From contig VHBA01000001.1 in assembly GCA_016872175.1 (NCBI GenBank), forward strand, positions 66,757-101,033: a stretch of DNA of 34,277 nucleotides. Reading direction: 5' to 3'. Under the pieces are notes generated by a model. That model was not told where the DNA came from and ran no database searches. It worked only from the letters and a program-made list of their open reading frames with translations. This DNA is from Sphingomonadales bacterium. Lineage in GTDB: Bacteria; Bacteroidota; Bacteroidia; NS11-12g; UBA955. Positions 20,439-33,128 of this stretch are shown here, piece after piece (within the stretch, counting starts at the first letter, position 1; each line of letters begins with the position of its first letter). The position numbers were made by a program, and so were the translations under genes.

Positions 20439-23400
20439 CTAATTCTTCGGCCTTAACAACAATACACACCCCTTATCCTGCCTGTTGGGGGTTTTTCTGC
20501 CCTTGAAGTTGATTCGATAGGCATATACACCTTCCTGACAGGGATTGCCATTAAAGGTGCCGTCCCAAAATTGTGTAGGGTTTTCACTCCTGAATACAAT
20601 TTGTCCCCAGCGGTTATAAATAAGCATCTCAAACTCTACCGCACCAATTACCACAGATTCCAATTTATCATTGAACCCATCATTGTTGGGCGTAAAAGCA
20701 TTCGGAATATAATAAACTACCGTATCTCGATAGCAATATTCGGCTTCAACACTGTCTTTGCATCCACCGGCATTTTGCACAACAAGCTTCACCGTATAGC
20801 GATTCTTTTCTCCCGTGTAATTGTGTTTAGGACTCACAGCCGGATCAAATGCCTCACTGCTGCCATCGCCCCAGTACCAGGCGCCGGAAGATGCACCAAC
20901 ACAGTTATTGAAAATACGCAATGTGGGATAAATAGGACTTAAACAAGGCGCTCCATTGGGAATACTGCCAATAAATGCGGCCGTGATGGCTTTGTATCCG
21001 GGTATTTCTATGCTGGTATCTACAATACAGCTGGTTTTTAGGTTTACTGCTGTAACACGATAAATGTTTCCGCTCAATGCATTGAGAGAATCGCCAATAT
21101 ATACAGGGCTCACATCCCATGTAAAACGATAGGGGTCGGCATCTTTCATGCGCAGTTTTATCCAGCCTTTTTGCCCAAAGCAAACAGGAGAGGAGGTTGC
21201 TGGTGAAAAATAGGGCTTGGGATGCCTGTAAATGGGAACAGCAGCCGTAGCCGGCTCACTGCATCCATCCGTAACTGTAACCATGTAAATGGTAGTCGTA
21301 GTTGGACTCACAAATGTTCCGTTGCCGGTTTGACCATTGCTCCACGAAAAGAAGTATGAGTACTTGTCTCCACCTGTCGCTGAAGCCCTCAGCCAAACAA
21401 TTTCGCCAGGGCAAATGGTATCTGTTGGAGGATTTACTTTTACCTTAAGTGTATCAATTACATTTACATCAAGCGAGGTTGTGGCGGTACATGCCCCGGA
21501 AACCAAGGTATATGTAAGCGTGTGTTTACCACTGCCTGCTAAATAGGGATTAAAACTATTTCCTGTAATTCCTTTTCCGGTAAATGTTCCTCCGGGCAAA
21601 TTAGCCGTTAGCAAATAGGGCGTGTTTTTAAAACAGTAATCCGTTACAGGATTAACAAACCATAGGGTTGGGGATGCGTCCACACGAATGTTGAAATTAA
21701 CAGTACAACCCCATTTGTTTCGGAAAGTGATGGTTTTTGTTCCGGTTCCGGCCACAGCAGGGTTAAATGTACCAAGTGTAGCATTGGTAATGCCTGTTCC
21801 GCTAAAGGAGCCTCCTTTTTCGCCTGCCCGGCAATTGAAGGGTGCTGTATTTATACAAACAGCCGTATCTGCCTGTGCAGTGGGTTTGGGTCTAACGAAT
21901 GCATTGATGGTGTCTGTACATCCGTTTTTGTTGTAAACAAGCTTATGGTTGCCAAAGCCGGCAAGTGAAGCCGTAAAGCCATTACTACCCGTAATTCCGG
22001 GACCAGTCCAAAAACCACCATCAGGATTTAGACCGAGCAGTGCGTTGTTCAACACCCGCAAGGGCGTTTCAATACAGAAAAACTGCGTGTCTTTTTTAAT
22101 TATTTTGGTCGGAATGAGATATACGAACTTACGGTCTGAGCAAACCCCGTTGCGAATAGTAAGGGTGTCGATATAGGTTGTTCTGCCCAATGAAAAGAAA
22201 AAGCCGGGATCGTAATCGGGTAAATTAGGATTCACAATGCCCCTGCCTTTCCAGGTGTAGTTGGCTGATGGCCTGAAATTGGACAGTACTTTTTTACCTG
22301 CGGCCGGACAAAAAGTATCATTGGGACCTGCTTCACAAGGCAGTACGTTTAATCGGGTGGTATCTTTACAACCGCCACCATTCCAAATTATCAACTTGGT
22401 GCCTGCTCCGCCCATTTGACTGGGATTGTACCAGCCCCAGTAAGAATTGGTTAATCCGGGAAACCAATTGGGGTATATTCCTTTTGGCGAAAAAGCAAGC
22501 GTATCGGAGGTTCTGGATTCGCAGGTGGTGTCAAACTTGGGAACTACCATGTTTTCAACCCTTATGGTTTTTACACTTTTGCAGCCCTTCCATGTGTAGG
22601 TATCCTGATAAATGCCCGGAACATCGGGGTTGAATATACCGGCAGACGTTATTTTTGGCCCACTCCATGTTCCCCCAAGCGGACCATACCACCAAACGGC
22701 CTGGGGTGGTTTTCCGGGACAAAAAACATTTTCCAGATTCCACGGAGCGGTAGTATTAACAAAAACGGTATCTGAACAACTGCCAACCTGATACCATACT
22801 TTGCATTTTCCCCAGAATACAGAAGGCTTGAACTCACCGGTTGTTGAGTTTACAATTCCGGTCCCCATCCATTTGCCACCGGCTGGCGTCGCTCTCAGGA
22901 AAATATTGGGGCCATAGTAGCAAATTTCGGTATCTGCCATTGCCACGGGCGGGTCCAGAACGACAATATCTACCGTGTCAGCCGAAGGTATGGAGGAGCC
23001 ATCGGTTACCCTAAGAATATATCTTGTATTGGTATTGGGGCAAATTCTGTGAGGGCCTGCACCGGAAAGGGTGGGTGTCCAGGTATATACGTATTTAGAT
23101 GTATTTCCTCCACTGACAGTAGCGCGCAGCCAGGTACAGCTGCCTTTACAAATGGTGTCGGAATCAGCTTTAAGAATAACTTTAAGTGGACAATCAGATA
23201 CATTGAAAATCAGTTTACTGGTTGTTAAGTATACACTATCGCAAAAATCTTTCCAATAAACATTAAGCTGAAACGTATAACTTCCATTTAGGAACAACGG
23301 ACCATTTGTGTTTACCGAGAATATAGTGGCTTTCCCTCCGGTGCAGTTGTCGGGCGTGATAGACGTGATTCCTAAGCCGCCAAAGGGACCTGTTAACGAT

Positions 23401-23933
23401 CCAAGCAATGCTTTTATACTGTCACACGGGATATTTCGGTTGCTATTTACTTTAAAGGAAGTTGCATTGCATTTTACTGTGCCATTTAATGTGAACAATG
23501 GAGTGGGAGGCGGAACAATGGTAGTAATAATATCGGCTTCCCAGCCATAGCAGGCAACACTTTTATCGCTTTTGAAATGAATGGTTATAAAACTGTCCTT
23601 ACTTACAATGGTCTCCGGCCCCTTACTGCCACTCCATTTTCCCAGCAAGGTGGCAAATGTGTCTTTGCCATCGAAAATACGGAGAATATCATTGTCCTTT
23701 TCTGTGCAGAACGATTTGAATTTCAGCGTAATGCTTTTGGCACCCGGAACACTTAAGGTAAGTGTGTAATTTTCATTATGGTCATAATCGCCTTTGGTTC
23801 TACCCTTTTCACTATCCTTGAAAACACCTTTGCACACCCTTACGCGGCCATTTTGCATAAAAACTTCCGTTTGGGCTGCCGAAAAGTGCGCCCAACCTGT
23901 CAAAAACAATATGCAGGCCAGCTTATTAAACAT
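20439..23933 (-). CDS. giant CUB/Ig-like/PKD cell-surface protein with T9SS type B (gliding-associated) C-terminal domain
   Basis: The product has 1164 residues. Order of parts: signal peptide 1-20; CUB-like domain about 34-138 with four cysteines (CKGVFKDSEKG, FCTEKDND, DILRIFDG, CYGWEAD); linker PPPTP; a domain 145-250; Ig-like module type A at 255-326 (DTICKGSCTWLRA); six or seven degenerate modules type B between 337 and 830, each with GG-x-(W/F)-x-G-x-G-I and a terminal Cys (for example GGKWMGTGI, GGSFSGTGI, GGTFTGKGI); a second type A module at 838-905 (DTICPGEIVWLRA); a PKD domain about 985-1068 (WYWGDGSSE); and the CHU_C/type B sorting domain 1072-1164 (IPNAFTPNNDGFND, YNRWGQIVF). It should be exported by T9SS and held on the surface as an adhesin or binding protein. 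Its ATG overlaps the stop of the upstream gene (TGATG). Confidence 0.92.
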   Translation of the reverse strand: MFNKLACILFLTGWAHFSAAQTEVFMQNGRVRVCKGVFKDSEKGRTKGDYDHNENYTLTLSVPGAKSITLKFKSFCTEKDNDILRIFDGKDTFATLLGKWSGSKGPETIVSKDSFITIHFKSDKSVACYGWEADIITTIVPPPTPLFTLNGTVKCNATSFKVNSNRNIPCDSIKALLGSLTGPFGGLGITSITPDNCTGGKATIFSVNTNGPLFLNGSYTFQLNVYWKDFCDSVYLTTSKLIFNVSDCPLKVILKADSDTICKGSCTWLRATVSGGNTSKYVYTWTPTLSGAGPHRICPNTNTRYILRVTDGSSIPSADTVDIVVLDPPVAMADTEICYYGPNIFLRATPAGGKWMGTGIVNSTTGEFKPSVFWGKCKVWYQVGSCSDTVFVNTTAPWNLENVFCPGKPPQAVWWYGPLGGTWSGPKITSAGIFNPDVPGIYQDTYTWKGCKSVKTIRVENMVVPKFDTTCESRTSDTLAFSPKGIYPNWFPGLTNSYWGWYNPSQMGGAGTKLIIWNGGGCKDTTRLNVLPCEAGPNDTFCPAAGKKVLSNFRPSANYTWKGRGIVNPNLPDYDPGFFFSLGRTTYIDTLTIRNGVCSDRKFVYLIPTKIIKKDTQFFCIETPLRVLNNALLGLNPDGGFWTGPGITGSNGFTASLAGFGNHKLVYNKNGCTDTINAFVRPKPTAQADTAVCINTAPFNCRAGEKGGSFSGTGITNATLGTFNPAVAGTGTKTITFRNKWGCTVNFNIRVDASPTLWFVNPVTDYCFKNTPYLLTANLPGGTFTGKGITGNSFNPYLAGSGKHTLTYTLVSGACTATTSLDVNVIDTLKVKVNPPTDTICPGEIVWLRASATGGDKYSYFFSWSNGQTGNGTFVSPTTTTIYMVTVTDGCSEPATAAVPIYRHPKPYFSPATSSPVCFGQKGWIKLRMKDADPYRFTWDVSPVYIGDSLNALSGNIYRVTAVNLKTSCIVDTSIEIPGYKAITAAFIGSIPNGAPCLSPIYPTLRIFNNCVGASSGAWYWGDGSSEAFDPAVSPKHNYTGEKNRYTVKLVVQNAGGCKDSVEAEYCYRDTVVYYIPNAFTPNNDGFNDKLESVVIGAVEFEMLIYNRWGQIVFRSENPTQFWDGTFNGNPCQEGVYAYRINFKGRKTPNRQDKGCVLLLRPKN

Positions 23934-24382
23934 CAGCGGGTTATAGTGATTTCAGGGGTTTTGATGGGGTTACTCCAATTTCCTGCGCGGTCTTTAATCC
24001 TTACTGTAAATGATGTTGTTTCTATGTTTCCGGTGCCCAATAAAAACACATTCTTTAGGTTCATCATCATTTGACCTTTAATGCGAATTTTAGCATCCAC
24101 AGGTGCCATGGGCGGAACATAGTAAAAATCAGCCTTGGCGAGCCTTTCATCCTGCACTTCCAGGCTGTTGATGTCGGCATTGTCATGGCCCAAATCACCG
24201 TCTCCATCTTCGTAATTGAAAGTGATTTTAAGTGAATCAGTAAATTGTTCGACCTGGGTAGGTTCAATTTTAACCAGGGCTATTCTCGGAATTGGATTAC
24301 CCGTTGTATTTACCACTTCCTTACAACTGTTCAGTATTGGAAATGCAAACAGGATCAATATGCTGAAAAACACAATTCTCAT
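23933..24382 (-). CDS. small lipoprotein of the DUF1501 operon
   Basis: The product has 149 residues with lipobox LNSC (Cys20). The mature part is a predicted beta-sandwich: IALVKIEPTQVEQFTDSLKI, then an acidic turn YEDGDGDLGHDNADINS that looks like a calcium-binding loop, then FTVRIKDRAGNWSNP, which resembles Ig-like/FN3 strands. No family recognised. ATG overlaps the stop of the preceding gene as ATGA and its own stop overlaps the next start as TGATG, so its translation is coupled on both sides. It was probably retained for a stoichiometric complex with its neighbours (inference). Confidence 0.82.
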   Translation of the reverse strand: MRIVFFSILILFAFPILNSCKEVVNTTGNPIPRIALVKIEPTQVEQFTDSLKITFNYEDGDGDLGHDNADINSLEVQDERLAKADFYYVPPMAPVDAKIRIKGQMMMNLKNVFLLGTGNIETTSFTVRIKDRAGNWSNPIKTPEITITR

Positions 24383-25329
24383 GGTATTCTAAGGGCAAAG
24401 TATTTTTTAAGGAAGAACATGCTGTTGGTGTTAGGCAGCTGGTAATTGTTGTTGACATTATCGCTGCAGGTAATACGGAACCAAACCACATCATAAGACT
24501 GCATGCCTGAGGTTGAAAAGGGATAATACCATACATAGGGTGTAGAAGTTGCATACAAACCGGGGAGGGTTTTCGGCGTTCCTTTCACCAGTGGTTTTTC
24601 GTTGGCAGGGTCAAAATTCTCAGGGTTAGTAGACCAGTTTATGCTCATTCCTGTCAGGTTGTCCTGATTTAGCACATCGTCTGCAAGAGCAAACCAAAGC
24701 TCCAGGTTTTGGCCTGCCTGTGCAACCATGGGTTCATACTTACCACCTCTGCCAATGGGAGAGCCATTTAACAAAGCCTGCACGCCCATAATCTGCGGAG
24801 GAAAATTCACCGGACCGGGCTTATTGCCCTTGGAATCGGGAGCGCCTTTGTTAATCCACTGTTTCAGGTTGTTGAGTAATTTATCTTTTACAGCCGGATA
24901 ATTACTTCCCGGATCCAATACAAGTGGCATTATGCCTGAGTTTCCACCCAAATCCACAGTCATTCGGTATGTGATGATGCTTGCATCCGCATTGCCAGGT
25001 AATACACGGGCGTTAAAGGTGCCGGCTTGGTCGTTTTTAATGGGTTTGACGTTCACTAAAGAAGCGAAGGAGCTTTCAACGGTTCTGAAATCCGGCTCGA
25101 AAGTGCCGTCATGGCAACCACTATTGGCGCAGGTCGGTGCGAACAAATCTCTGTGCAAGCCCTGAATACTGGTAGCATCGGCAGATGAATCGCGGGAGCT
25201 AGTAGTATCCCTGTTTATCTTAATAGGTTTGCCATAAGGATTATCGCTAAGAGAACCTTCTTTTTTGCATGCAATTCCAAAGACAAGCAAGGAAGATAAA
25301 ACTGCCGGTATTATATGCCTCTTTTTCAT
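24379..25329 (-). CDS. cytochrome c-like lipoprotein with CX4CH haem motif
   Basis: The product has 316 residues from ATG 25329; a GTG one codon earlier is the alternative start. The lipobox is FGIAC. A single haem-type motif CANSGCHDG gives Cys68-x4-Cys73-His74 (numbered from the GTG) in the context LHRDLFAPTC. Downstream, SGIMPLVLDPG followed by LLNNLKQWINKGAPDSKG matches the axial-Met and last-helix pattern of class I cytochromes (MPP...WIxxGA). The C-terminal half (about 175-317) is beta-rich (IMGVQALLNGSPIGRGG, VVWFRITCSDN). Known CX4CH sites exist in some multihaem cytochromes; haem attachment here is inferred. The gene overlaps the DUF1501 gene (TGATG) and the small lipoprotein gene (ATGA). 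Confidence 0.85.
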   Translation of the reverse strand: MKKRHIIPAVLSSLLVFGIACKKEGSLSDNPYGKPIKINRDTTSSRDSSADATSIQGLHRDLFAPTCANSGCHDGTFEPDFRTVESSFASLVNVKPIKNDQAGTFNARVLPGNADASIITYRMTVDLGGNSGIMPLVLDPGSNYPAVKDKLLNNLKQWINKGAPDSKGNKPGPVNFPPQIMGVQALLNGSPIGRGGKYEPMVAQAGQNLELWFALADDVLNQDNLTGMSINWSTNPENFDPANEKPLVKGTPKTLPGLYATSTPYVWYYPFSTSGMQSYDVVWFRITCSDNVNNNYQLPNTNSMFFLKKYFALRIP

Positions 25330-26672
25330 CACATTCTCAGAAATAAACTTTTAGACTGAGGGTCGAGATACGGACTGGCCTTAACTTCATCGTAAACACC
25401 AAATATATCTGCAATGGTTGGGACAATATCCGTGAGCTTGCCTACTTTATTGTTTTCAGAGCCTACTGTCATTTTGGGGACATTCTTGCCTACCATTACC
25501 GACCAAACACGCATGGCATTGGCATCGCTATGGTCATAGGCATACCAGTCATTTTCGTCCAAAATAGGGTTGGGGTTGAGGTTCCTGCCACATTCCGGTG
25601 CAATGATCATGATGGTTTTTCCCGACATTTCCGGAATATTGTTTTGAATATAATTCCATAGCCAGCCCACAGAATGATCAGCCCTGTGCAGACTGCGCAA
25701 GTAACCGGTAAAATTGCTATGACAACCGTCTACAGCACTCATATTCAAGGTGAGGAACTTGGGCTTAAAGTGACGCAAAACCTCGGCGGCATAGCTTATG
25801 GTAACTGCATCGCCGTTATCGGAAACCGGAGGACGTGGAATAAGCCCCTGATCCTGCCGCTGAAATACTGCACGGATAAATTCCTTGATTTTGGTTTTTT
25901 CTTCGTCCGTATTTTTTATGGTTTCCAGTTGATCCACGGATAAACCAAAACTCTGGTCCAGGAAGTTCTTCATAAAATACATGGGTTCCAGTTCGGCCCG
26001 AGAGTATGGCTTGCCATTACCTAATATTTCTCTGCCAACTCCACCGAAAGTATAAGGGGCAGCAAACATATTGCCGCCATATTGAAGTCCGTAATCCGCA
26101 TTTTTACTGCTGTTCAGCAGGGGAGTGCTGTTGCCTAGGCCATTGGCAATAAACCACGTATCAAGAGCCGCAAAACCGGCATGTTTTCTCAGGTATTCAA
26201 AAATGGTGGGGTATTTGGGTCTTGTTTTAAGGCCCTGTGCCGTGCCTAGGCTTCCTGTAATGAGGGTGTTGAGACCAACATAATGTCCTGCTGAAATGGC
26301 CGACATTTCTTTAAAAACCGTTCCTGTATCTTCCATGCTTTGGCTCAGAATTCTGGGAATGGGTTCACTTCCTCGGGTGGCACCGCCTCCGGGGTCTGTA
26401 CCATAAACAATTTTACGGTCTGGGGCGATTCCGGTAAACAGGTTGGGCATGATGTTACCGGCTGCACCTGTCACTTCCTGGCTGTCGTCCAGATAACGCT
26501 GCAAAACACTTTCTTGCTGCCGAACACCACCGGCAAACATCACCATAACTACATATTCGGCTTTGGGTGCATTGGTCCTGGCAAACATTCTGCCGGTGGG
26601 CAAAATGTAAGGGGCTGCAACCGTACCGGCCGTTACCATTCCGGTTTTCTTGAAAAAATCTCTTCTGTTCAT
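25329..26672 (-). CDS. DUF1501 domain protein with Tat signal
   Basis: The product has 447 residues. The leader MNRRDFFKKTGMVTAGTVA carries the twin-arginine motif RRDFFKK, so export should be folded through Tat, perhaps with a bound metal. The body matches DUF1501, an alkaline phosphatase/sulfatase-superfamily branch abundant in Planctomycetes and Bacteroidota: YVVMVMFAGGVRQQESV near the N-terminus, LTLNMSAVDGCHSNFTGYLRSLH in the second half, TIMIIAPECGRNLNPN and YDHSDANAMRVWSVMVG, then LTDIVPTIADIFGV. The His/Asp residues of these blocks sit where metal ligands lie in the superfamily. The substrate is unknown. It lies 9 bases behind one lipoprotein gene and overlaps the cytochrome-like lipoprotein gene. 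Confidence 0.9.
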   Translation of the reverse strand: MNRRDFFKKTGMVTAGTVAAPYILPTGRMFARTNAPKAEYVVMVMFAGGVRQQESVLQRYLDDSQEVTGAAGNIMPNLFTGIAPDRKIVYGTDPGGGATRGSEPIPRILSQSMEDTGTVFKEMSAISAGHYVGLNTLITGSLGTAQGLKTRPKYPTIFEYLRKHAGFAALDTWFIANGLGNSTPLLNSSKNADYGLQYGGNMFAAPYTFGGVGREILGNGKPYSRAELEPMYFMKNFLDQSFGLSVDQLETIKNTDEEKTKIKEFIRAVFQRQDQGLIPRPPVSDNGDAVTISYAAEVLRHFKPKFLTLNMSAVDGCHSNFTGYLRSLHRADHSVGWLWNYIQNNIPEMSGKTIMIIAPECGRNLNPNPILDENDWYAYDHSDANAMRVWSVMVGKNVPKMTVGSENNKVGKLTDIVPTIADIFGVYDEVKASPYLDPQSKSLFLRM

Positions 26673-26681
26673 GGTTGTTTA

Positions 26682-27182
26682 TTAATAGTACTGGTATTCA
26701 TCGCTCACGGAAAAGGCAGTGTAAACCATCTCGACCGATACGTTAGGATTGCTGTTTATGTAATTGATAAAAAAGGTCTTTTCTCCCTCAGAAGGATACC
26801 TCAGAAAAAAGCGCTTATAGCATTTTTCTACAAATGCGGCTACATCGGCTCGCATCTCGCTGTCTTTAGGGATTTTTAGCGTTGATGTATTGAAATAGTT
26901 ACTCAAAACCATTTCATTGGCAACATTGCGATCTCCTATGCTGTATACAACATTCTGTGTTTTATAGAGCCGAGTGGGAGAGATAGGCACCTGATACAAG
27001 TTTGTGTAAAGAATGGAAATGTATTCCGCATCAGATTTTCGTTTGGTTTTTAGGCTTTTATCTTCATAAACAACCTTGTCATTCACTCCATAGGAAACGT
27101 TTTTCTCCTTGGTGCATCCGGAGAACAGTAGAAATGCAGAAAAAATGACGGGGATGATTTTACCTGAACTGTGCATATTCAT
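26682..27182 (-). CDS. lipoprotein with paralogous C-terminal module, DUF1501 operon
   Basis: The product has 166 residues. The lipobox is LFSGC (Cys23). ATG at 27182 (or 27176) overlaps the end of the upstream gene by 23 (or 17) bases. The last 50 residues, CYKRFFLRYPSEGEKTFFIN to DEYQYY, align with the last 45 of the upstream lipoprotein, VYYLLLQRDANTQEVINLLG to DEYAQFR. Both resemble the helical DUF1549/DUF4214 type of repeat. The first half (YISILYTNLYQVPISPTRLY) may be a second copy of the module. No catalytic residues are seen; a structural role beside the DUF1501 protein is the likeliest reading. Confidence 0.8.
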   Translation of the reverse strand: MNMHSSGKIIPVIFSAFLLFSGCTKEKNVSYGVNDKVVYEDKSLKTKRKSDAEYISILYTNLYQVPISPTRLYKTQNVVYSIGDRNVANEMVLSNYFNTSTLKIPKDSEMRADVAAFVEKCYKRFFLRYPSEGEKTFFINYINSNPNVSVEMVYTAFSVSDEYQYY

Positions 27183-28074
27183 CGGTTTTGATTACGGCTT
27201 TTTGTACTTCCTGTAAATTGTTGCTGCGTATGTAGTTGCCCAGCAGATTGATAACTTCCTGTGTGTTGGCATCTCTTTGCAGCAGTAAATAATAAACCCA
27301 TCGTATTTGTGCTTCATAGAACTCAGGTGTATGGGTTAAGACATCACAATATTCATTTTTGTTGGCTGCCCATCGACCAAAAATTTGTCTGGGTATGTTT
27401 TTATCAATAATATCATATGCAGCCGAGAACTCATCTTTGATAGGCTGGCGCTGAAACAGATCATCAAAACTGGCATTTACATAATTGAAGCTGTTCATAT
27501 TGATTTGGTCATAAATAGAGTTATTCAGCATGGCAGCGCACATGTCACTGTATGTGGCCTTGTTTTTTAGTAGTTTATACCTGCTGTTCAACACATCTCT
27601 GTATTGCTTTTGGGCTGCTTTGGCTGAGTATACACCAACCGAATCCCCATTTAAACGGGAAATTGTTATGCTAAACTCAAGAATGCCAATATTCTGTGCG
27701 ATATCAGCGTCGCTGGCTCCTTCCAGAAATCGGGCTTTACTCAAATCATAAATACGCTGTATGGCAGCATGCCGGTAAGTGGAATCCCCGGGGTGATAGG
27801 TTGTATCATACAACAGCTTGCTAACCAATGTGTCCCGGGCATGGATGCTTAGTTTGTTCCTCTTTAGGAATTCAGTGTGGTAAACCCGCTCTGTATCGGT
27901 TGGCTCACGCCCCAACAGATCAATAAAATAACGGTTTACATAATTCTCAACTTTGATGGTGGGCACAGACCGGTAATCCGGCGGCTGATTGCCGGAAATG
28001 AGAATGTCTTCAGTTTTCGTGCACGAAGAAATCAGCAGAAAAACCAGGCTGAGGGGGAGGGTAAACTTCAACAC
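27160..28074 (-). CDS. lipoprotein with DUF1549-like helical modules, first gene of DUF1501 operon
   Basis: An ATG at 28131 would place a junk leader across the promoter, so I prefer GTG 28074 (TTG 28071 is equally possible), directly behind the TTTG-N19-TAACATTG promoter. The signal peptide is then VLKFTLPLSLVFLLISSC, with lipobox Cys18 (304 residues). The region YVNRYFIDLLGREPTDTERV followed by LVSKLLYDTTYHPGD resembles the DUF1549 pattern (LDLxGRxPT...LLxSxxY) that accompanies DUF1501 in Planctomycetes. The C-terminus repeats a related module (LLLQRDANTQEV to DEYAQFR). This gives the operon a planctomycete-like pairing, but as separate small lipoproteins. Family assignment is by eye. Confidence 0.78.
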   Translation of the reverse strand: MLKFTLPLSLVFLLISSCTKTEDILISGNQPPDYRSVPTIKVENYVNRYFIDLLGREPTDTERVYHTEFLKRNKLSIHARDTLVSKLLYDTTYHPGDSTYRHAAIQRIYDLSKARFLEGASDADIAQNIGILEFSITISRLNGDSVGVYSAKAAQKQYRDVLNSRYKLLKNKATYSDMCAAMLNNSIYDQINMNSFNYVNASFDDLFQRQPIKDEFSAAYDIIDKNIPRQIFGRWAANKNEYCDVLTHTPEFYEAQIRWVYYLLLQRDANTQEVINLLGNYIRSNNLQEVQKAVIKTDEYAQFR

Positions 28075-28079
28075 TATCA

Positions 28080-28110
28080 CAATGTTAAACAATAAAATTG
28101 ACAATTCAAA
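28080..28110 (-). promoter_or_regulatory. promoter of the six-gene DUF1501 operon
   Basis: On the minus strand TTTG (28110-28107), exactly 19 bases, then TAACATTG (28087-28080), seven of eight at -7. This is the best full-consensus promoter in the window. The predicted transcript start is at about 28075, next to the GTG at 28074. Confidence 0.7.
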
Positions 28111-28140
28111 GAAATTGATACATATTGGCAATAGTTAAAT

Positions 28141-28280: not shown

Positions 28281-29438
28281 ATGGCGTTTTATCATAAATC
28301 TGGACAAATTCCCGCAAAAAGACACACCCAGTTTCGCAAGCCCAACGGAGAGTTGTATGCAGAGGAACTGGTTAGTACTGAAGGCTTTAACAGTATCTAT
28401 TCACTGATCTACCATTGCCATCCACCCACACTGGTCAGTCATATCGGCGATCCTTTCAGTATAGAGCCAAAAATTGCCATGCCTAAAAATATGCAGCACC
28501 GCAGTTACTTGACCTGGAATGTGCCTTCAAAAGCCGATTACATAGAAAGCCGGAAGGTCTTATTGATGAATCATGATATCCATATTGGAGTTGCAGCTCC
28601 CACTGAGAGCATGAAAGACTATTTCTTTAAAAATGCCGATGGTGATGAGGTGCTATTTATTCACGAAGGAGAGGGATTTCTTGAAACCATATACGGTCGC
28701 ATTGATTTTGAGTATGGCGACTATCTCGTAATTCCCCGCGGAACCATATATAAGCTGCATTTTAACGGCACAAGCAACCGAATATTTTTTGTAGAATCGC
28801 CTAGTCCTGTTTACCCTCCCAAACGCTACCAGAACAGCATGGGTCAGTTGCTGGAACATTCGCCCTATTGCGAGCGGGATATAAAACTGCCTCACAGTAT
28901 TCAAACCCATGATGAAATGGGGGAGTTTAAGGTAATGATTAAAAAACAGGAATCCATTTGGCCATATACCTATGCTACACACCCTTTTGATGCGGTAGGT
29001 TGGGACGGATTTTTGTACCCTTTTGGATTTAGCATTCATAATTATGAGCCCATTACCGGCAGGCTACACATGCCGCCACCTATTCATCAAACATTTGAAG
29101 GCAGGGGATATGTGATTTGCAGTTTTGTACCACGGCTTTACGATTACCATCCATTGAGCGTTCCTGCACCTTACAACCACAGCAATGTGGACAGCGATGA
29201 GATTCTGTATTACGTTGACGGCGATTTTATGAGCCGCAAACATGTGGAACGCGGCATGATTACACTGCATCCAAAAGGCATTCCTCACGGACCGCATCCC
29301 GGAACAGTGGAAAAGAGCCTGGGGCAGAAAGAAACCCGCGAACTGGCCGTGATGATTGATCCTTTTTCTCCCTTAATGATTACAGAAGAAGCCTTAAAAC
29401 TGGAAGACCCTACTTACTGGAAAAGTTGGGTAGAATAA
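28281..29438 (+). CDS. hmgA: homogentisate 1,2-dioxygenase
   Basis: The product has 385 residues. It is shorter than the human enzyme (445) but typical of the bacterial short form. Conserved blocks: ADGDEVLFIHEGEGFLETIYG (cupin strand), FEYGDYLVIPRGTIYKLHF, MPPPIHQTFEGRGYVICSFVPRLYDYHP with the catalytic His of PPPxxHQTFE, then PYNHSNVDSDEILYYVDGDF, which supplies the metal-ligand His300 and an acidic ligand (Asp306/Glu307), and HPKGIPHGPHPG, which supplies the third ligand. The enzyme opens the ring of homogentisate with O2 using Fe(II), the central step of tyrosine and phenylalanine breakdown. No fumarylacetoacetase or maleylacetoacetate isomerase gene is adjacent. It requires aerobic life. 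Confidence 0.95.
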   Translation: MAFYHKSGQIPAKRHTQFRKPNGELYAEELVSTEGFNSIYSLIYHCHPPTLVSHIGDPFSIEPKIAMPKNMQHRSYLTWNVPSKADYIESRKVLLMNHDIHIGVAAPTESMKDYFFKNADGDEVLFIHEGEGFLETIYGRIDFEYGDYLVIPRGTIYKLHFNGTSNRIFFVESPSPVYPPKRYQNSMGQLLEHSPYCERDIKLPHSIQTHDEMGEFKVMIKKQESIWPYTYATHPFDAVGWDGFLYPFGFSIHNYEPITGRLHMPPPIHQTFEGRGYVICSFVPRLYDYHPLSVPAPYNHSNVDSDEILYYVDGDFMSRKHVERGMITLHPKGIPHGPHPGTVEKSLGQKETRELAVMIDPFSPLMITEEALKLEDPTYWKSWVE

Positions 29439-29445
29439 ATTATTA

Positions 29446-29453
29446 TATACTTG
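29446..29453 (+). promoter_or_regulatory. possible -7 element of the Asp-box T9SS protein gene
   Basis: TATACTTG matches TAnnTTTG in seven of eight positions and ends 3 bases before the ATG at 29457, in the 18-base gap after hmgA. Confidence 0.4.
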
Positions 29454-29456
29454 AAA

Positions 29457-32400
29457 ATGAAAACTTTGAAACTTTTAAGCATCCTTATTTTAGGGTGTGT
29501 TTTTATCACATTGCAGGCACAGACAGGCCCCAATAACTATAGCAAAAAGGTAAATAAAACGTATAAAAAGCTGGTAAAAGCCGCATCGAGGCAAAACCAC
29601 ATGCTTGAAGGGGACAAGCAGGCCACCCCAAATCTTTTCTGGGCACAGGAATATATTGCTACCATGGATCCTGCCACAGGCAAACCAACCCCTGAAAACA
29701 TACTGACGGCAATACAACAAAGCGGAGCCACTAAAAATTTGAGCCGCAGGGCCATGCCTGGCATGAGCGTTACTCCCTGGGTTGAAAGAGGTCCCAATAA
29801 TGTAGGCGGTAGAACCCGCGCTCTGTCATGGGATCCCATTGATCCTACAGGTAAAAAAGTTTGGGCTGGTGCTGTTACCGGCGGATTATGGTACAACAAT
29901 GATATTACGGATGCAAATAGCAAATGGGTTCAGGTAAGCGGCTTATGGAGCAACCTCACTGTAAGTTGTCTGGCGTGGGATCCAAATGCGCCGGGAACCG
30001 GCTATGCAGGAACAGGAGAGGGTTTTGGTACCAGCAGCAGCACCTCCAGAGGGTTTGGTATTTGGAAAACTACAGATTCAGGTAAAACATGGAATCAGCA
30101 ATCGTCCACCACCACCTTCTATTATGTACTGGATATAGTAGTGAGAAATGAAAGTGGCAGCAGTGTGGTTTATGCTGCCATTGATGCCAATACTTACCAG
30201 GGAACTACATTTGGTTTGAGCAATTATGGCCTGCATCGCAGTACCAATGGTGGCAGTAGCTGGACCAATGTAATATCCAGTGCCCCTAACGGGCAAAAAT
30301 TTGCGGTAGCTGATATTGAAATAGCTGCTGATAACCGAATCTGGATTGGCACGCGCAACAATCCTTATGCAGGCACCGATAGGGGAGCCGGTCGTGTAAT
30401 GTATAGCGACAATGGCACAACCTGGACTACCAGCTATACACATACCAACAAAACCGGCCGGGTAGAAGTGGCCACAGCGCCGGGAAAACCCAGAACTATT
30501 TATGCCATGATTGAGCACAACCTGACTGTGGATGCCATCATCGCTACCTACGACAAAGGAGCCAACTGGACGTCAAGAACCGAGCCTGATGATGCCGACA
30601 ATGGCATTCCCAATACGGATTTTTCGAGAGGTCAGGCCTGGTATGATTTGATTTTGGCTGTTGATCCCAATGATTCCATGATTGTGTATGCAGGTGCTAT
30701 CAATATATTCAGAAGCGCCAATGGTGGTAGTTCATGGACACAGATTAGTAAATGGGCAAATAATGCCAATATGAACACCCTCAATTGTCCGTATGTTCAT
30801 GCAGATCAACATGCATTTGTTTTCAAACCCGGCAGCAGCACAACCTGTATTATAGGTAATGACGGTGGTGTATTCTATAGCAATAATATTGGCTCAGCTG
30901 CTACCAGTTCAACTGCCATTGCAGAGCGCACATACGATTACAGCACCACGCAGTATTACTGGGGCGATATGGCGCAAACTTCAGGTTCCAACCTCATGAT
31001 TGCGGGCGCCCAGGACAATGGAAGCCACCGATTTACCACAGCTGGTAAAAATGCCGTAGGTGGGCTCACAGGTGGTGATGGTGCTTATTGTTTTATATCG
31101 CAATCCAATAGCAACAAACAAATTACTAGTTATGTGTACAATCAGTATTACTACACACTGGATAACTGGACAACACCAACAGCTTTTACGTTAAATAATG
31201 ATGGTGCCACCGGTCGTTTTATCAATCCTGCAGAATGGGACGATAACGGTAGTGGTTTATTTTCTGCAAAAGGAACCGGAACTTTGTATAGACGCACTCT
31301 GACAACAGCCCCGGGTACGCTTCAAACCATCACATTTGGCGGCAGCAATTATGCCAGTGCTATAAAAGCCTATAAATTGGGTACAGGTAAAACCAGATTA
31401 TGGGTAGGGAATGAGGCCGGCAAATTGTATGTAACGGATGATGCCTGGGCTACAATGCCTACATTCACAGATAAAACCGGGACCATCAATGCAGGTAATA
31501 TTTCCGATATAAATGCACTTAGAGGAGGAGATACAATGGCTGTAACCTTATCTAATTATGGTATTCGCAATATATACCTAAGCTTAAATGGCGGTACTAC
31601 ATGGACACAAAAGGAAGGCAACCTGCCTGATATTCCGGTATGGAGTATTTTACTGAACCCAATCAAACTGGGCGAAGCTATTATTGGTACTGAAACCGGC
31701 ATTTACGGCACCGACAACATATTTGCTACAAGTCCGGTTTGGACAGCCTATACCACAGGGATTGGTTTCGTGAAAATGCGCAACCTTCGCTACAGACCCG
31801 CTGATAAAATGATTATGGCGGTGACGCATGGGAGAGGAGTGTTTACCAGCGATGCCTGGGCTAAAAACCGGCCCATTCCGGCTTTCGGAACCAGCAGCCG
31901 CGACGTATGTACCAATCAGGGTGTTACTTTTACAGATAGTACACTGAATGATCCAACTGCCTGGAGCTGGACAATTACACCGCGCAATATGGTTTACTTA
32001 TCTGGTACAGACAGTACCAAAAAGAATCCGGTGGTGCGTTTTACCAAGGGCGGAGTTTATCAGGTGAAACTGACTGTCACCAACAGCATTGGCAGTAATT
32101 TCATTGTGAAATCAAGCTGGGTAACTGTTACAGACACTGTTCCATTTACTGCTACTGTGAATATGAGTCGCACCAGCTTTTGTAATGGCGATACATTTAC
32201 ATTGTCCGTGAGTGTACCTACTGCTTTACAGGGAACCATAACTTCCTATTCCTGGAGAAGAAATACAGCCAACACAGTTTCAACGGCAACCTATAACCTG
32301 GCACCTATAAAAAACGACAGTTTTAGTGTTTTGCTCAGCAGCAACAAAAAGTGTGTATCACCGACCAGCTATCGCACAGCAGTAGTGAAACCAACAGTTT

Positions 32401-33128
32401 TTGATATTGTGAATGCATCGGCAAAAATGTCTGCAGGAACCGGATGTACAGGACGACCATTAACACTGAGTGTTACAGGAACAAATACCGACAGCAGTCC
32501 AAGCTGGAACTGGTTTAAAAATGGTAATCCTGAATCAGGTAATTTACCCACACTAAGCATACCATCACCAGCAAATGGCGATAAATACTGGGCTACGGTA
32601 AATGTAAGCGGGCCATGTGTGAGACCGACCAATTTGATTAATTCGGATACGGTTAGTTTGGTAATCAATAATACGCCTGCATCGCCACAGGTAACCAGAA
32701 ATTTTGATACCTTGTTTGCGCAAAACATGGGCAGCGGAACCTATCGGTGGTTCAAAGCAGGTGTTCTGGCGGGTAATGGCATGATTTTCAGGGCAACTTC
32801 CAATGGAAATTATCGTTGTGTTTACACCGAAAATGGCTGTGCCAGCGATACCAGCCAGACACTAATTTTCAACAGCCTGAGATTGCAGGATATCGGTAAT
32901 TTGCAGGTGCTGTATCCAAATCCTGCGTCATTGTTTGTTATGTTGCCTGCTGAATCATCCGTAAACAGTTATGCGGTTATTTTAGACAGCAAAGGTAGTT
33001 TGGTGAAGACTGTAACATTAAAGAATGCAGTCAATTATGCTTTTAAGGTTGATATTAAAGAGTTAAAACCTGGCAGTTATTTTATCCAAACGGTTACCGG
33101 AAAGTCATACAGATTTATTAAAGAATAA
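29457..33128 (+). CDS. secreted Asp-box (BNR/VPS10-like) propeller protein with PKD domain and T9SS type A sorting domain
   Basis: The product has 1223 residues from ATG 29457 (TTG 29451 lies in the promoter element). Signal peptide MKTLKLLSILILGCVFITLQAQ. Residues about 100-800 form beta-propeller repeats with Asp-box motifs: KTTDSGKTWNQ, RSTNGGSSWTN, YSDNGTTWTT, RSANGGSSWTQ, LSLNGGTTWTQ; the opening RGPNNVGGRTRALSWDPID is typical of Bacteroidota VPS10/sortilin-like proteins. A PKD domain follows (FTDSTLNDPTAWSWTITP to VYQVKLTVTN), two Ig-like modules with paired Cys, and the type A sorting domain (LQVLYPNPASLFVM to SYRFIKE). A glycan- or polymer-binding role is possible; sialidase catalytic residues were not recognised. 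It lies 18 bases after hmgA. Confidence 0.92.
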   Translation: MKTLKLLSILILGCVFITLQAQTGPNNYSKKVNKTYKKLVKAASRQNHMLEGDKQATPNLFWAQEYIATMDPATGKPTPENILTAIQQSGATKNLSRRAMPGMSVTPWVERGPNNVGGRTRALSWDPIDPTGKKVWAGAVTGGLWYNNDITDANSKWVQVSGLWSNLTVSCLAWDPNAPGTGYAGTGEGFGTSSSTSRGFGIWKTTDSGKTWNQQSSTTTFYYVLDIVVRNESGSSVVYAAIDANTYQGTTFGLSNYGLHRSTNGGSSWTNVISSAPNGQKFAVADIEIAADNRIWIGTRNNPYAGTDRGAGRVMYSDNGTTWTTSYTHTNKTGRVEVATAPGKPRTIYAMIEHNLTVDAIIATYDKGANWTSRTEPDDADNGIPNTDFSRGQAWYDLILAVDPNDSMIVYAGAINIFRSANGGSSWTQISKWANNANMNTLNCPYVHADQHAFVFKPGSSTTCIIGNDGGVFYSNNIGSAATSSTAIAERTYDYSTTQYYWGDMAQTSGSNLMIAGAQDNGSHRFTTAGKNAVGGLTGGDGAYCFISQSNSNKQITSYVYNQYYYTLDNWTTPTAFTLNNDGATGRFINPAEWDDNGSGLFSAKGTGTLYRRTLTTAPGTLQTITFGGSNYASAIKAYKLGTGKTRLWVGNEAGKLYVTDDAWATMPTFTDKTGTINAGNISDINALRGGDTMAVTLSNYGIRNIYLSLNGGTTWTQKEGNLPDIPVWSILLNPIKLGEAIIGTETGIYGTDNIFATSPVWTAYTTGIGFVKMRNLRYRPADKMIMAVTHGRGVFTSDAWAKNRPIPAFGTSSRDVCTNQGVTFTDSTLNDPTAWSWTITPRNMVYLSGTDSTKKNPVVRFTKGGVYQVKLTVTNSIGSNFIVKSSWVTVTDTVPFTATVNMSRTSFCNGDTFTLSVSVPTALQGTITSYSWRRNTANTVSTATYNLAPIKNDSFSVLLSSNKKCVSPTSYRTAVVKPTVFDIVNASAKMSAGTGCTGRPLTLSVTGTNTDSSPSWNWFKNGNPESGNLPTLSIPSPANGDKYWATVNVSGPCVRPTNLINSDTVSLVINNTPASPQVTRNFDTLFAQNMGSGTYRWFKAGVLAGNGMIFRATSNGNYRCVYTENGCASDTSQTLIFNSLRLQDIGNLQVLYPNPASLFVMLPAESSVNSYAVILDSKGSLVKTVTLKNAVNYAFKVDIKELKPGSYFIQTVTGKSYRFIKE

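Follow-up and report, generated by a model that had tools for sequence, protein, structure and literature searches.

A conserved six-gene envelope operon of Bacteroidia that may represent a split and divergent PSCyt/DUF1501 module

Introduction

Genes of the PSCyt kind are abundant in bacteria of the Planctomycetes-Verrucomicrobia-Chlamydiae (PVC) group, where their function is unknown and a part in carbohydrate chemistry has been proposed; they occur near sulfatase genes, and some carry carbohydrate-binding module (CBM) domains (PMC5615132). Genes encoding DUF1501 and DUF1800 proteins travel with chitin synthase genes in some Proteobacteria (PMC5122149), and a further paper (PMC4960237) cites a 2012 PVC gene-content study of a DUF1501 module. 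Here we analyse a six-gene operon (genes A to F) within a stretch of 34,277 nucleotides, hereafter the window (contig VHBA01000001.1 of assembly GCA_016872175.1, positions 66,757 to 101,033), from a member of the class Bacteroidia. The six genes constitute, with near certainty, a conserved module of this class, and their products match in outline the PSCyt/DUF1501 parts list, split into separate lipoproteins and permuted. No published description of the operon was found in the open-licence literature.

The host is a freshwater bacterium with a genome of 2.26 Mb in 91 contigs (98.7% complete); its named relatives are metagenome-assembled genomes throughout, with sample names that often refer to a lake or pond. 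The operon and its promoter comprise the following features, all on the minus strand.

Promoter upstream of A, 28080..28110, minus strand: Bacteroidota-type element, TTTG-N19-TAACATTG.
Gene A, 27160..28074 (27160-28131 as the longest open reading frame, ORF), minus strand: lipoprotein with a phycobilisome-linker/DUF4214-like fold.
Gene B, 26682-27182, minus strand: smaller lipoprotein with a DUF4214-like C-terminus.
Gene C, 25329-26672, minus strand: alkaline-phosphatase-superfamily protein of the DUF1501 branch, exported by twin-arginine translocation (Tat).
Gene D, 24379-25332, minus strand: lipoprotein with a predicted class-I-like c-type cytochrome domain and a C-terminal domain.
Gene E, 23933-24382, minus strand: small immunoglobulin (Ig)-like lipoprotein with an acidic loop, Y-x-D-G-D-G-D-L-G.
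Gene F, 20439-23933, minus strand: type IX secretion system (T9SS) type B surface protein with a CUB domain and cysteine-paired Ig/PKD-like repeats, found in branch 1 only.

Results

The conservation and order of these genes, computed directly, carry the principal finding. Genes A to F recur in that order with near-zero spacing in relatives of the host, and the order A-B-C-D-E is found in nearly all adequately assembled loci examined across the class, which bears out the expectation of a preliminary description of the window, made from its letters alone, that the gene order would extend beyond this strain. C is present in 74 of the 108 genomes of the order, with identities of 57-98% among full-length copies. 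Among 396 genomes of the class, C was detected in 90, A in 89 and both in 88 (P=6e-85, a value which ignores shared ancestry), and A lies upstream of C on the same strand at 99 of the 107 places where C was found; at the other eight, the match to A is on another contig or lost at a contig end, or the genome has a C-like gene alone. About a quarter of sampled Bacteroidia carry the operon, usually as one copy per branch (the branches are defined below), and in a sample of the phylum (n=118) the two strong matches, in the host genome itself and in genome G167, both fall inside the class. All six genes are under strong purifying selection, with ratios of nonsynonymous to synonymous substitution (dN/dS) of about 0.01-0.05 where computable within the genus, ratios which are rough given saturated dS.

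Bacteroidota secrete many lipoproteins and CHU_C proteins, and a run of unrelated secreted-protein genes brought together by chance, or merely co-regulated, might be anticipated on that basis. The low dN/dS and the class-wide gene order show that the run is more than chance; the near-fixed order across the class and the near-perfect co-occurrence refute this account as far as the conserved unit is concerned, and we regard it as extremely improbable overall. Because this near-constant arrangement is found throughout the class, A to F almost certainly serve one machine.

The operon falls into two branches. In branch 1 (C above about 450 bits; roughly 52 genomes) the locus comprises A to F, and in branch 2 (C at about 290-410 bits; roughly 53 places) A to E stand alone among unrelated neighbours; sixteen genomes have both. 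Among the loci read, A to E are in order at 54 of 57 in branch 1, under strict gap limits, and at all 17 in branch 2, and F lies directly downstream at 53 of 57 and 0 of 17, respectively; the departures comprise a contig break, ORFs whose starts are over-long and a single locus in which F lies elsewhere. F of full length (above 1200 bits) was found in 6/6 branch-1 genomes tested, in 0/34 genomes with branch 2 only and in 0/40 others, and the best other match (325 bits) is a contig-end fragment in genome G221, where a further fragment of A likewise lies at the end of a contig. The constant core is A to E, with F the partner of one branch only, so that the earlier notion of a CUB surface protein added to the module holds for branch 1 but not for branch 2. 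In the large genome G384, F has been retained although about 1 Mb separates it from A-E. We rejected the possibility that F is an ordinary secreted neighbour, as it follows branch 1 even when unlinked. G384 also has 13 PSCyt2 places beside its branch-1 A-E operon.

Within the window, the ORFs of all six minus-strand genes at 20439-28110 were confirmed, together with the tight junctions first described: A and B overlap (-23), B and C are separated by +9 bases, and C/D, D/E and E/F meet at -4, -4 and -1, respectively, the first of these being counted from the GTG start codon of D and becoming -1 if D begins at the ATG that follows it. The promoter was initially taken for a full consensus; TTTG-N19-TAACATTG in fact has one mismatch to the Bacteroidota consensus TTTG/TAnnTTTG. 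A block of the form TTTG-N19-TAnnATTG is kept in four genomes despite divergence of the other upstream and flanking DNA, and this retention of TTTG, the 19-base spacing, TA and ATTG makes the promoter at 28080-28110 credible. The start codon of A is probably at 28071 (TTG in the window, ATG in a relative), in which case the operon message would be nearly leaderless. Scans for sigma-70 promoters and terminators gave no useful signal.

Every product carries an export signal, as first claimed. The lipobox cysteine does not vary among the 35-36 sequences compared for each of the four lipoproteins, A (C37), B (C23), D (C22) and E (C20); the leader of C is of the Tat type, its twin residues being RR at 58 and RK at 14 of 74 loci; and the C-terminus of F is formed by a T9SS type B domain (CHU_C, 64.7 bits; TIGR04131, 49.7 bits), which, together with SprA in the host genome, identifies it as type B cargo. 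Searches of the window proteins with Pfam and NCBIfam identified very little other than F and a weak match to DUF4214, and the assignments that follow draw on predicted structures, on alignments of relatives and on profile comparison.

The AlphaFold model of C, with a predicted local distance difference test (pLDDT) score of 84.2, has the fold of the alkaline-phosphatase superfamily: it aligns with the alkaline phosphatase PafA (5tj3) at a VIA Z of 26.1 over 293 residues, followed by sulfatases, phosphonate hydrolases and LtaS-type proteins including LtaP, and Foldseek returned 425 matches at E<0.001. A sequence search of C against solved structures gave nothing significant, and the Pfam DUF1501 model (PF07394) has no match in window C at its gathering score and matches one of 36 relatives (E-value 0.003). 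Compared as profiles, however, C and 24 Bacteroidota DUF1501 proteins match with an hhalign probability of 95% over 336 columns (negative controls below 1%), and the conserved columns of these 24 and of 36 C sequences show the same kinds of residue in the same succession: RRxF, GG, a lone His, D-x(1-2)-H, E-x-G-R and DH. The original assignment to DUF1501 thus stands as kinship and fails as Pfam membership; C belongs to the DUF1501 branch of the alkaline-phosphatase superfamily, outside the Pfam model.

Nine residues of C (H130, D315, H318, E360, G362, R363, D372, D380 and H381) are invariant across the 36 sequences, down to 31% identity. In sulfatases the nucleophile motif is followed by T-G, and counting back from T-G would place His130 at the nucleophile position, an argument from sequence and not from coordinates; by the same count, the His of the DUF1501 motif SHF would fall at the same position. 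Compared with PafA and sulfatases, C appears to have His in place of the nucleophile; GG[VL]R replaces the first-strand Asp, and the D-H pair gives way to E-[C/H]-G-R. We lean modestly towards C being a working metal enzyme.

The presence of LtaS, LtaP and phosphonate hydrolases among the structural neighbours of C raises the prospect of envelope-glycan modification, in which C would, like LtaS, move or remove phospho- or sulfo-groups on lipopolysaccharide, capsule or a T9SS-anchored glycan, positioned by F and the lipoproteins. The company that DUF1501/DUF1800 genes keep with chitin synthase in some Proteobacteria (PMC5122149) is in keeping with such a role. However, no conserved glycan genes lie beside the A-E core in the loci read, and the cytochrome would be left without a role, such that we judge this explanation quite unlikely.

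Protein D was described from the outset as cytochrome-like, and the alignments agree. All 35 sequences compared retain C68-x4-C73-H74, M135-P136 and W159-I-x-x-G163, and D matches the PSCyt1 region of canonical PSCyt proteins with an hhalign probability of 96%, with low negative controls, in an alignment which sets its CX4CH on the CxxCH of PSCyt1. D accordingly has the CXnCH motif, the distal Met and the WI..GA helix of a PSCyt1-like c-type cytochrome; its sequence gave nothing significant against solved structures. A published genome survey (PMC5566968) includes CX4CH among the motifs taken as heme sites. On these motifs, D quite probably binds heme covalently. A cytochrome c assembly gene and SprA, needed for heme attachment and export, are present in all 46 operon-bearing genomes tested.

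For the lipoproteins A and B, a phycobilisome-linker/DUF4214-like description fits best. The AlphaFold model of A (pLDDT 93.7) finds phycobilisome linkers at every one of ranks 1-33, with a best VIA Z of 11.2 to 3ohw over 118 residues. Helical folds below about Z 13 need care, as the tool itself warns, and the linker fold is supported by this unanimity together with the DUF4214 and PBS_linker_poly profile matches among members of A. Pfam finds no match at all in window A; DUF4214 matches 23 of 36 A members and 20 of 36 B members (E-values up to 0.01 in both), and scores 22.1 bits in the window copy of B against a cut-off of 23.2. The likeness to linkers (PF00427) and DUF4214 is one of fold and profile, as A shares about 10% identity with linkers, is anchored as a lipoprotein and belongs to non-photosynthetic bacteria. 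A and B had been called DUF1549-like lipoproteins; they are lipoproteins, while the link to DUF1549 is suggestive only, as Pfam DUF1549 has no match in either window protein and the profile similarity to that family is weak.

In E, Y57, D59, G65, D78, R80, D131 and S137 are invariant, D63 is nearly so, and the acidic loop DGDGDLG is conserved. F has about 29 invariant Cys and a length of 1152-1194 residues in 28 sequences; as this near-fixed length is kept at identities down to about 29% (among 20 aligned), the length itself may matter. A CUB/Ig rod of this kind, scaffolds of a fold whose known members are assembly scaffolds (A), and a protein C that lacks the usual nucleophile and the second-site acids would all suit a structural adhesion or surface-layer complex, in which A, B, E and F provide scaffold and binding, C is a ligand-binding pseudo-enzyme, and the heme of D is structural or redox-sensing. 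Nevertheless, nine invariant residues in C exceed the needs of a fold, and the invariant CX4CH and Met-Pro of D likewise argue against this explanation, which we consider unlikely.

The operon and the canonical PSCyt1-PSCyt2-PSD1 plus DUF1501 arrangement of PVC bacteria (represented here by loci L171 and L146) both bring together, in one cluster, a cytochrome c domain, a helical partner with an LxGRxP-like motif and a Tat-exported protein of the DUF1501 branch. In the canonical system, however, the cytochrome (CxxCH) and its partner form one large polypeptide, whereas here A, B and D are separate lipoproteins and the cytochrome motif is CX4CH; the early suggestion of a partner split into small lipoproteins is thereby upheld. 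The A-B-C-D-E order, the presence of E and F, and the failure of the Pfam DUF1549 and DUF1501 models to detect the window copies set the operon further apart. A DUF1800-DUF1501 pair found elsewhere in the host genome (8405-11689 of locus L071, contig C33) likewise has a helical partner encoded immediately upstream of a protein of the DUF1501 branch, but contains neither cytochrome nor lipoproteins, and the profile match of A to DUF1800 is weak (18%). A scan of the host genome for DUF1501 found C33 alone. The DUF1501 protein of this pair itself bears a sorting tail of T9SS type A.

If the operon were a rearranged copy doing the same job as canonical PSCyt/DUF1501 loci of Planctomycetes, Verrucomicrobia and some Bacteroidota, then the proposed action on carbohydrates would extend to it, as the three shared types of ingredient might suggest, along with the sulfatases and CBM domains that accompany PSCyt genes (PMC5615132). 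Yet a canonical locus (contig C71) coexists with both branches of the operon in genome G108, as does a DUF1800/DUF1501 pair with the operon in the host genome, which suggests a different job, and E and F have no counterpart in canonical systems; we therefore hold this explanation very unlikely. Because such loci coexist in some genomes, the operon represents a distinct branch.

At 28281-33128, a divergent homogentisate-dioxygenase-like gene is followed by one for a large protein of the PKD/T9SS type A kind. These two genes, together with an NFACT gene, flank the site even where relatives have lost most of the operon.

Discussion

That the operon encodes one conserved envelope module of a split, divergent PSCyt/DUF1501 kind is, as an overall framing, an evenly balanced proposition, and we consider it somewhat probable that its products form one physical complex. 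Such a complex may act as a redox-linked hydrolase or transferase of the outer envelope. C would fold in the cytoplasm, be exported by Tat and catalyse a metal-dependent hydrolysis or group transfer; one metal site (D315, H318 and H381) would be retained, and His130 would stand where Ser, Thr or formylglycine serves in related enzymes. A and B would be membrane-anchored scaffolds of the linker fold which hold C, and D, as a one-heme cytochrome lipoprotein, might supply a redox step or a redox switch. E could be a calcium-binding Ig-like spacer, and in branch 1, F would be a disulfide-stiffened rod of nearly fixed length, delivered by the type IX system, whose CUB end may bind the target or a neighbouring surface polymer; the substrate is perhaps a sulfated or phosphorylated polymer. 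The redox-linked mechanism in this specific form is tentative and, in our judgement, less likely than not.

Several observations weigh against this mechanism. As judged from sequence, C lacks the Ser, Thr or Cys nucleophile and the two-metal ligand set of its relatives, with H130 at the inferred position and no first Asp; having neither such a nucleophile nor the second-site acids, it may be catalytically altered or inactive. C can also persist without the other operon genes: several relatives (L066-L070) have none of A, B, D, E and F at this locus, and what is left between their homogentisate-dioxygenase-like and NFACT genes is a shortened C-like gene which keeps most signature residues, and two further C-like genes (L144 and L145) belong to genomes without A. 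We rejected the possibility that these C-only relatives are pseudogenes, given the signature residues kept; C can therefore act without the others, or has another role there. The similarity of A to DUF1549 and DUF1553 is suggestive at most, being weak and direction-dependent: PSCyt2 (DUF1549) or PSD1 (DUF1553) match 3 of 36 A members (best E-value 3e-4), and hhalign gives 63% in one direction and 18% in the other, with 7% for B. The K-(D/E)2 signal for surface export (PMC5080379) is fully matched in a minority of copies of A, B, D and E, and this strict signal leaves their location undecided. Lastly, the presence of cytochrome c assembly genes and SprA does not discriminate, since both are nearly universal in the class (80/80 and 79/80 sample-wide, respectively).

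If the several parts do work together as proposed, then an alkaline-phosphatase-fold protein with His at the nucleophile position, a CX4CH cytochrome, linker-fold scaffolds and a T9SS-delivered rod of fixed length would constitute a widespread and undescribed envelope complex of Bacteroidia, and a new redox-coupled hydrolase or transferase, a possibility that we regard as doubtful at present. More broadly, the operon isolates PSCyt-related parts as small separate proteins, each open to expression or deletion alone, such that the question of PSCyt function becomes testable through its separate parts, and the branches with and without F provide a natural experiment on the contribution of this surface protein.

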